Part shown: piece after piece, positions 4,571 to 6,401 of the stretch
Layout of the letters: every line of letters starts with the position of its first letter
How positions within the stretch are numbered: position 1 is the first letter of the stretch
From: Streptomyces sp. MS191
GTDB taxonomy: Bacteria; Actinomycetota; Actinomycetes; Streptomycetales; Streptomycetaceae
Direction: 5' to 3'
Assembly: GCF_008042125.1 (NCBI RefSeq)
Contig: NZ_RDBI01000054.1
Span: 232,662 to 276,885, forward strand
DNA: 44,224 bases
Notes under the pieces: model-generated
What the model saw: only the letters and a program-made list of their open reading frames with translations
Database searches by the model: none
What the model was told of the DNA's origin: nothing
Made by a program: the position numbers and the translations under genes

Positions 4571-4599
4571 GACGGCGGGGGCGTGTCGCCCCCGCCGTC
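4571..4599 (+). terminator. Intercistronic hairpin between rpsB and tsf
   Basis: A perfect 13-bp stem (GACGGCGGGGGCG at 4571-4583 paired with CGCCCCCGCCGTC at 4587-4599) closes on a TGT loop. There is no long T tract, as is common in actinobacteria. It may partly end transcription after rpsB, or protect the rpsB 3' end and set the lower level of tsf. Confidence 0.7.
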
Positions 4600-4641: not shown

Positions 4642-5478
4642 ATGGCGAACTACACCGCCGCTGACGTCAAGAAGCTCCGTGAGCTCACCGGCGCCGGCAT
4701 GATGGACTGCAAGAAGGCGCTGGACGAGGCCGAGGGCAACGTCGACAAGGCCGTCGAGGCCCTGCGCATCAAGGGCCAGAAGGGCGTCGCCAAGCGCGAG
4801 GGCCGTTCCGCCGAGAACGGCGCGGTCGTCTCCCTCATCGCCGACGACAACACCTCCGGTGTCCTCGTCGAGCTGAAGTGCGAGACGGACTTCGTCGCCA
4901 AGGGTGACAAGTTCCAGGCCGTCGCCAACGCGCTCGCCGCGCACGTCGCCGCCACCTCCCCGGCCGACCTCGAGGCGCTTCTCGCGTCCGAGATCGAGCC
5001 CGGCAAGACCGTCCAGGCTTACGTCGACGAGGCCAACGCCAACCTCGGCGAGAAGATCGTCCTGGACCGCTTCGCGCAGTACGCCGACGGCTTCGTCTCG
5101 GCCTACATGCACCGCACCATGCCCGACCTCCCGCCGCAGATCGGTGTCCTCGTCGAGTTCGACAAGGAGAACGCCGAGATCGCCAAGGGTGTCGCGCAGC
5201 ACATCGCCGCCTTCGCGCCGAAGTACCTCACCCGTGAGGACGTCCCGGCCGAGGTCGTCGAGACCGAGCGTCGCGTCGCCGAGGAGACCACCCGCGCCGA
5301 GGGCAAGCCCGAGGCCGCGCTCCCGAAGATCGTCGAGGGTCGCGTCAACGGCTTCTTCAAGGACGCCACGCTGCTCGGCCAGCCGTACGCGCTGGACAAC
5401 AAGAAGTCCGTCCAGCAGATCCTGGACGAGGCCGGTGTCACCCTGAAGCGCTTCACGCGCATCAAGGTCGGCATCTGA
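4642..5478 (+). CDS. tsf: Elongation factor Ts
   Basis: A 278-residue guanine-nucleotide exchange factor that regenerates EF-Tu-GTP during translation. The N-terminal UBA-like domain reads [27 protein letters not shown]. The core signature [12 protein letters not shown], which contacts the EF-Tu magnesium site, lies near residue 80. Length matches other Streptomyces EF-Ts. It follows rpsB by 112 bases containing a strong hairpin. Two short hairpins directly after the stop (5479-5495 and 5500-5514) may end or slow transcription before the pyrH leader. Confidence 0.99.
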
Positions 5479-5555
5479 GTCCGTACGCAACGGACGCCGG
5501 ACCCCGGTAGGGTCTGAAGCGGTTGTCCGCGTTCGCGTAGGACGATCGCAGATCT

Positions 5556-5614
5556 GACGAGGAGGCCATTGCCGTAGGGGAAACCGCAAGGACCCACCGG
5601 CAATGGCCTTCGTC
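5556..5614 (+). promoter_or_regulatory. Candidate structured RNA leader of pyrH
   Basis: A long nested hairpin lies 22 bases before the pyrH ATG. The outer helix GACGA/TCGTC (5556-5560 with 5610-5614) is followed by a two-base GG bulge and a perfect 12-bp helix, AGGCCATTGCCG (5563-5574) with CGGCAATGGCCT (5598-5609). Inside, GGG (5578-5580) can pair with CCC (5593-5595). After an AAA/A internal loop, CC-GCAA-GG forms a GNRA-capped tip (5584-5591). There is no T tract after it, so a simple terminator is unlikely. The left arm also contains a GAGGAGG resembling the real ribosome site at 5625-5630. I do not recognise it as a named riboswitch. Confidence 0.6.
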
Positions 5615-5636
5615 GTATGTGCACGAGGAGATCTCC

Positions 5637-6401
5637 ATGAACCAGGGCGCCGCACAGGGCGACGACATCCACGGCAAAAAGGCCGGACGCTTCATGCTGA
5701 AGCTGTCCGGTGAGGCATTCGCCGGCGGCGGCGCACTCGGCGTCGACCCCGACGTCGTGCACAAAATCGCGCGCGAGATCGCCGCGGTCGTCCGCGACGG
5801 TGCGGAGATCGCGGTCGTGATCGGCGGCGGAAACTTCTTCCGCGGCGCAGAGCTGCAGGTGCGCGGCATGGACCGGGCGCGCTCCGACTACATGGGCATG
5901 CTCGGCACCGTCATGAACTGCCTCGCCCTCCAGGACTTCCTGGAGAAGGAAGGCATCGACTCCCGCGTCCAGACCGCCATCACCATGGGCCAGGTCGCGG
6001 AGCCTTACATCCCGCTGCGTGCCGTGCGCCACCTGGAGAAGGGCCGTGTGGTCATCTTCGGTGCGGGCATGGGCATGCCGTACTTCTCCACCGACACCAC
6101 GGCCGCCCAGCGTGCCCTGGAGATCGACGCCGAGGCCCTGCTGATGGGCAAGAACGGTGTCGACGGGGTCTACGACTCCGACCCGAAGACCAACCCCGAC
6201 GCGGTCAAGTTCGACGCGCTGGAGTACGGCGAGGTGCTCTCCCGCGACCTCAAGGTCGCCGACGCCACCGCCATCACCCTGTGCCGTGACAACACCCTGC
6301 CGATCCTCGTCTTCGAACTGCTCGCCGAGGGCAATATCGCGCGCGCGGTGAAGGGTGAGAAGATCGGCACTCTCGTGAGCGACCAGGGCACCCGGGCCTG
6401 A
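5637..6401 (+). CDS. pyrH: Uridylate kinase (UMP kinase)
   Basis: A 254-residue cytoplasmic hexameric enzyme that phosphorylates UMP to UDP with ATP, feeding UTP and CTP synthesis; bacterial PyrH is usually activated by GTP and inhibited by UTP. It belongs to the amino-acid kinase fold: [10 protein letters not shown] at the N-terminus, [11 protein letters not shown] for phosphate binding, and [18 protein letters not shown] near residue 175. The ATG at 5637 is preferred over an upstream GTG (5619) because GAGGAG sits six bases before it. It is preceded by a strongly folded leader and followed by frr after 94 bases, the standard actinobacterial order. Confidence 0.98.

Follow-up and report, generated by a model that had tools for sequence, protein, structure and literature searches.

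The question raised by this locus is what an elaborate folded element is doing immediately upstream of pyrH, the gene for UMP kinase, in a strain where neither the Shine–Dalgarno (SD) sequence nor the start codon of that gene lies inside it. The window (the whole stretch analysed, 44,224 nucleotides of Streptomyces sp. MS191) carries the gene block rpsB-tsf-pyrH-frr on the + strand, with rpsB from 3630, tsf at 4642-5478 and pyrH, encoding a UMP kinase of 254 aa, at 5637..6401 from an ATG at 5637; the gene names are taken from the first-pass annotation and from similarity. In the 158-nt gap that separates tsf from pyrH, a hairpin of 59 nt in all (5556-5614, + strand) ends 22 nt before the ATG and consists of a 5' arm GACGAGGAGGCCATTGCCG (5556..5574), a loop (5575..5597) and a pyrimidine-rich 3' arm CGGCAATGGCCTTCGTC (5598..5614) that forms an anti-SD strand. 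The 5' arm contains an SD-like GAGGAGG (5559..5565), and the ACGAGGAG within this arm is repeated downstream as the pyrH SD (5623..5630, + strand). Both this SD and the ATG are outside the stem, and the hairpin of this strain thus does not enclose them. The first-pass annotation had described the extension GACGA/TCGTC (5556-5560 with 5610-5614), the perfect 12-bp helix (5563-5574 with 5598-5609), the inner GGG/CCC pairs and CC-GCAA-GG tip, the length and spacing of the element and the SD-like motif in its left arm, all of which are found in the sequence. The GNRA-like upper part is present but its length is not conserved across Streptomyces-type hairpins (loop 18-27 nt), and the small hairpins upstream, previously counted as two, are three in the predicted fold of the 158-nt gap.

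The hairpin has a predicted minimum free energy of -38.3 kcal/mol, compared with -20.5 +/- 2.8 for 200 shuffles, none of which was as good (0/200, z -6.28), and its predicted stem has 18 pairs with a one-base bulge; the fold of the whole tsf-pyrH gap has a z of -4.75. In a MAFFT alignment of 35 actinobacterial sequences, 10 of the 15 stem pairs are changed on both sides, with 50 both-side-change cells as against 15.5 in shuffles, and 92.9% of cells are paired, as against at most 63.3% and at most 7 pairs for slid versions of the arms, a level matched by 0 of 500 shuffles. Very similar values were obtained from 71 matches (67 distinct) to a model of the hairpin, where again 10/15 pairs are changed on both sides (110 cells, 92.2% paired), although this alignment was fitted to the model and is not independent of it. 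RNAalifold, run on the family alignment, predicts 11 of the 15 stem pairs, 6 of them with double changes; all such covariation cells are counts of sequences and not of independent events. The compensatory changes across actinobacteria that the first-pass annotation had proposed to look for are thus present, the pairing is conserved, and its maintenance through double changes in both alignments supports the view that the folded element is under selection. No Rfam family matched at gathering score in the window or in seven further pyrH loci, and lowering the threshold to E<=5 in the region returned only two unrelated weak matches. The suggestion of an unrecognised regulatory RNA consequently stands as regards a conserved structure that Rfam does not match, its regulatory effect being the part that we infer. 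Judged from sequence, the pyrH hairpin is a real covarying RNA family, seen here only in the class to which the window belongs.

The association of this family with pyrH is close. Scored with a model derived from those 35 sequences (the seed), the hairpin reaches 70 bits in its own genome, where other distinct sites reach at most 24.9 bits and the opposite strand of the hairpin site 28.1 bits; the 15-base arm pattern has 1 exact place in this genome and 84 with 1-2 mismatches (85 together, compared with 35 for a reversed control). Some match at E<=0.01 was found in 140 of 394 genomes of the class. At E<=1e-5 there are 82 genomes with one match each, of which 81 lie directly before pyrH, which bears out the proposed tie to this gene; the only exception is in genome G214. 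The placement of 62 of the 81 comes from coordinates and that of the other 19 from fetched loci, which were accepted on a pyrH match and their position then read. Forty of these 81 matches are in the genus and 41 outside it, 29 of the latter not being in the seed (one of these, from G441, scores like the seed locus L108). A sense match at E<=1e-6 was obtained in 19 of the 79 pyrH loci sampled from beyond the genus, 17 of these 19 belonging to the seed, and a few more loci have weak matches (e.g. L157 and L210). Most of the sampled outside-genus loci therefore lack the element, which suggests that it is scattered and is not required for pyrH as such. A search beyond the class, in 198 genomes of the phylum, gave matches outside the genus in 5, and tblastn detected pyrH in none of these loci. 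Three genomes of one genus, g5, have a second, distant UMP kinase match (G044, 47%; G047, 45%; G045, 29% and weak), and in three genomes of family f20 (G216, G263 and G294) the best UMP kinase match is of only 48-49% identity, unlike in their relatives.

The position of the hairpin in other families of the class points to what it may do. Their tsf-pyrH gaps hold the same hairpin in different letters, the stem varying by family (for example GCCGCCG/CGGCGGC, GCCGGTGCC/GGCACCGGC, GCCCCG/CGGGGC and GGCCGGCACC/GGTGCCGGCC) and the complement changing along with it. The 5' arm in these families is GAGGAGGCC or CAGGAGGCC plus a spacer, followed by the GTG at which an N-terminally extended pyrH begins; codons of the extension make up the 3' arm. 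The motif corresponding to GAGGAGG of the window is thus pyrH's own SD in the hairpin loci outside Streptomyces, and the place of their GTG start is taken by GTA in the window (5574-5576). Since the 5' arm is the SD, the GTG comes next and the 3' arm is coding, the stem is expected to hide the pyrH ribosome-binding site. For 51 loci outside Streptomyces, hand-picked as hairpin carriers with near-duplicates included (e.g. L108/L271 and L278/L280), a script located an in-frame start in 48 (47 GTG and 1 ATG), at 9-18 nt past the first G of GGAGG. The exceptions are L300, which was scored as start-less because the script took another GGAGGCC and which does have the hairpin SD and GTG, and L233 and L101, which have the start elsewhere or a CTG.

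Predicted accessibility agrees with this arrangement. For the arm's GGAGG, the predicted probability of being unpaired has a median of 0.17 over the 51 loci and does not exceed 0.25 in 49 of them; the SD is predicted to be more open in the other two, L212 (0.57) and L152 (0.39). When scripted starts were used, the SD was unpaired at <=0.25 in 46/50 hairpin loci compared with 9/57 other loci (medians 0.13 and 0.41); the script chose another start in a few hairpin loci (e.g. L106, L159 and L166), and a rerun used the arm's own GGAGG. In these related loci the SD and start of the gene are both contained in the hairpin, and it is because the hairpin embraces them in most other-actinobacterial carriers that control of translation initiation is the leading candidate function. 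A separate case is locus L194 (genome G189, family f13), where the pyrH SD and GTG are buried in a differently shaped hairpin (GACCGAGGAGGCGACGTGACC / GGGCACGTCGCCTCGTTGGTC), possibly an independent analogue.

Within Streptomyces the element is kept almost without exception. A blastn search with this region matched 36/36 other genomes of the genus and 0/24 more distant genomes. In a set of 80 named loci collected via PyrH similarity and extended with loci from further genomes, a script found the hairpin in 148 of 149 loci (L001-L149, some genomes being counted twice), the sole locus without it being that of a metagenome-assembled actinomycete (L110). Across 106 distinct Streptomyces-type hairpins, 10 of the 13 columns of the 5' arm from GGAGG to GCC are invariant and only 4 cells deviate in total, compared with 50 deviating cells in the 13 matching columns of the 3' arm, nearly all of which still form G-U, G-C or A-U pairs. 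A near-frozen 5' strand facing a freer 3' strand suggests that the former is constrained beyond pairing. The loop, in contrast to the 5' arm, ranges from 18 to 27 nt and falls into all three frames (57, 27 and 22 hairpins), which argues that no reading frame is conserved across it. A conserved peptide in Streptomyces, judged by GTG, was accordingly rejected, a GTG following the arm in 1 of the 106. A TTG does occur within the arm in 142 of 148 Streptomycetaceae-type loci; in the window, reading it as a start would give CCG and then a stop.

How the hairpin came to be separated from the start codon can be followed in part within Streptomycetaceae. In most carriers, including Yinghuangia (L106), the GTG inside the hairpin is fused to pyrH. 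In Streptacidiphilus (L101 and L104), the frame is open from a CTG of the hairpin into pyrH, and an ATG further downstream, preceded by a good SD, may be the real start. All three Kitasatospora-type loci (L100, L102 and L107; 3/3) have a separate upstream ORF of 26-32 codons, VQ(D/E)TVPVPAAVASSRV..., which stops before the conserved part of pyrH and is out of the pyrH frame, and Wenjunlia (L099) has an out-of-frame ORF. In the Streptomyces type, the GTG is absent from that place in 105/106 hairpins. These arrangements suggest a series from fused extension through upstream ORF to non-coding leader, with the order of steps inferred from sequence comparison. That the hairpin was kept once the start codon had gone argues that RNA, and not a peptide, is under selection in Streptomyces. 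A second lineage with the hairpin detached from the start is represented by L233 (genome G269), in which perfect arms GACGAGGAGGCCGC/GCGGCCTCCTCGTC lie well upstream of the likely pyrH start and a TAGGGT box follows the hairpin.

Taken with the structure, covariation, link to pyrH and position of SD and start described above, we consider it probable (roughly 0.6) that the hairpin defines a cis-acting RNA family in actinobacterial pyrH mRNAs by which initiation of UMP kinase translation is controlled, and whose start codon has migrated out of the structure in Streptomycetaceae; the effect and its direction are presumed. Outside Streptomyces, the 5' arm of most carriers consists of the pyrH SD and its spacer, with the start codon atop the stem, so that the folded hairpin would shut the ribosome-binding site and translation would require the stem to be kept open. 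With predicted stem energies of about -36 to -51 kcal/mol (eight examples folded), opening by itself is unlikely and either loading on nascent RNA or a factor appears to be needed. A ribosome might bind the emerging RNA ahead of transcription of the 3' arm, or a trans factor might open or hold the stem. In Streptomycetaceae, the frame in the hairpin would have been cut off from pyrH, which would start at the second SD just downstream. In Streptomyces, a closed hairpin would keep the anti-SD strand occupied and leave the new pyrH SD partly open, and a ribosome or protein on the near-invariant 5' arm would release the 3' arm, which would then mask the SD of pyrH.

Folding of 114 distinct Streptomyces-type leaders is consistent with such an exchange. 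With the 5' arm masked, the mean probability of pairing between SD and 3' arm is 0.69 and exceeds 0.5 in 91/114 leaders, and the probability of the pyrH SD being unpaired falls from 0.54 in the native leaders to 0.18 (0.42 with the 3' arm shuffled). Closure of the SD upon masking suggests a route by which events on the 5' arm could close the SD downstream. Neither the window's own strain (P 0.00) nor its nearest relative (0.02) shows the alternative pairing, apparently owing to a U-to-G change, and 11/114 leaders in all are below 0.1. Moreover, any strand complementary to an SD tends to pair with another SD, and the alternative pairing may thus be a by-product. A more elaborate proposal, which we put forward tentatively and hold to be unlikely as a whole, is that of a new RNA family, distributed across many families of the class, in which ribosome loading on the nascent SD races hairpin folding, so that the speed of RNA polymerase, and hence UTP/CTP supply, would be read without a ligand pocket; in Streptomycetaceae this would have been rewired to a detached switch, the 3' arm being contested by the hairpin SD and the downstream pyrH SD. 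Hairpin comparisons revealed no fixed loop motif or ligand pocket.

The same comparisons bear on the possibility that the hairpin is a binding site for a trans-acting protein exerting feedback control, such as S2, EF-Ts, UMP kinase itself or another. Its location within the rpsB-tsf-pyrH-frr block and the fixation of the 5' arm at sequence level in Streptomyces would suit such a site, but the stem sequence changes between families and the loop has no fixed motif, which speaks against one conserved sequence-specific binder. As a replacement for control of initiation by the hairpin itself we regard a protein site as unlikely, although such a protein could also be the trigger within that explanation.

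Features at the presumed start of the pyrH transcript are relevant to a further explanation. A TAGGGT box (5508..5513, + strand), placed within the middle one of the small upstream hairpins, could be the -10-like element of a pyrH promoter. Of 148 loci, 134 have TAGGGT and 7 have TAAGGT, and in these 141 the box ends 23-110 nt before GGAGG. Both forms fit the Streptomyces -10 consensus TANNNT, as given in a passage of PMC8780764, but a simple scan for a sigma-70-type promoter at tsf-pyrH found none, and the promoter is therefore a presumed one. The box is upstream of the hairpin and not inside it, where a promoter had been named by the first-pass annotation as an argument against the element; the hairpin would thus be transcribed. 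Right after the box, at the presumed 5' end of the transcript, is a hairpin P1 of GUCGUCC/GGACGAC type (5519..5549, + strand), for which 10 pairs, 2 showing double changes, are predicted by RNAalifold from 35 sequences. Its pairing is kept in Streptomyces, and the few double changes give it weaker support than the main hairpin.

Alternatively, the hairpin could act in RNA stability or processing, its long GC-rich stem at the head of the pyrH message being cut by RNase III or blocking an exonuclease. Such a role would account for the 18-pair stem with its one-base bulge, for a second hairpin at the presumed 5' end and for persistence in Streptomyces after the start codon had left. It leaves unexplained, however, the placement of the stem over the SD and start in 48/51 other loci and the contrast between a near-invariant 5' strand and a freer 3' strand, and a literature search found no outside support joining pyrH, Streptomyces and RNase III. 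We therefore consider a stability element quite unlikely as the main function.

That the element attenuates transcription or weakly terminates it between tsf and pyrH is very unlikely. Many Streptomyces do have a stretch partly rich in T (TTCTTCGT) after the strong stem, but the stem in the window has no T tract and a + strand scan of 5380-5720 found no terminator-like site, in line with the earlier view that this is not a plain terminator; in other families the gaps with the hairpin have a 3' arm that is part of the coding sequence, and no run of T was observed behind it. Similarly, a near-perfect inverted repeat of almost fixed sequence in Streptomyces might be taken for a DNA operator bound by a transcription factor, but spacing between half-sites that varies over 18-27 bp would break helical phasing, G-U-tolerant and compensatory changes indicate RNA, and the hairpin lies downstream of the -10-like box, all of which make an operator highly improbable.

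PyrR represses translation of actinobacterial pyr operons. The pyrH hairpin is like these systems in concerning a pyrimidine gene and lying next to an SD, the genome encodes a PyrR (234 bits, above cut-off), and the leader of its pyrR gene (L311, G000:C197) has a stretch including the SD, CCCGTGAGGCGGAGAAGGAGG, which resembles the PyrR-site consensus. A PyrR-type site for UMP-responsive repression of pyrH translation is nevertheless most improbable, since the PyrR model in Rfam gives no match even at E<=5, the PyrR-like string present in the pyrR leader occurs in 0/186 pyrH loci, in agreement with the initial remark that the element did not fit known PyrR sites, and the hairpin model in turn finds nothing in the pyrR leader, the best matches in that locus (22.6 bits) being elsewhere.

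Control of translation initiation by the hairpin, which remains our preferred reading, has known counterparts. SD-sequestering leader hairpins of bacterial mRNAs include RNA thermometers and ribosomal-protein leaders. The pyrH hairpin is like these in that, outside Streptomyces, most carriers have the SD and start of pyrH base-paired within a conserved stem, but unlike them in that the Streptomyces hairpin contains neither the pyrH SD nor the start, and no Rfam family matches it. Among candidate cis-regulatory RNA structures of actinobacteria are the mraW and msiK motifs, presented as such in a section of PMC2864571, and the actino-pnp motif, in a section of PMC8780764. As characterised there, they resemble the pyrH hairpin in being actinobacterial candidates named after one gene, but they belong to other genes, and the Rfam scans at pyrH loci gave no match to them. 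Literature searches on pyrH leader or RNA control and on Streptomyces transcript maps, with supplementary tables outside their scope, returned no account of the hairpin, and pyrH has 0 occurrences in the main texts of PMC2864571, PMC8269248, PMC6742748, PMC8780764 and PMC8914203. The family is undescribed in the sense that it was not found in these searches and is unmatched in Rfam 15.

UMP kinase supplies the pyrimidine nucleotide pool, and a hairpin over its ribosome-binding site would be a concrete point of control; the enzyme is called an attractive antibacterial target in the abstract of PMC12847342. The proposed series from extension through upstream ORF to non-coding leader would also show plainly how a regulatory RNA can persist after loss of the reading frame that it once formed part of. 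Elsewhere in the same gene block, the rpsB-tsf gap of the window contains a 13-bp GC-rich inverted repeat with a 3-base loop (4571-4599) and no T run after it, which may be another leader or processing hairpin.
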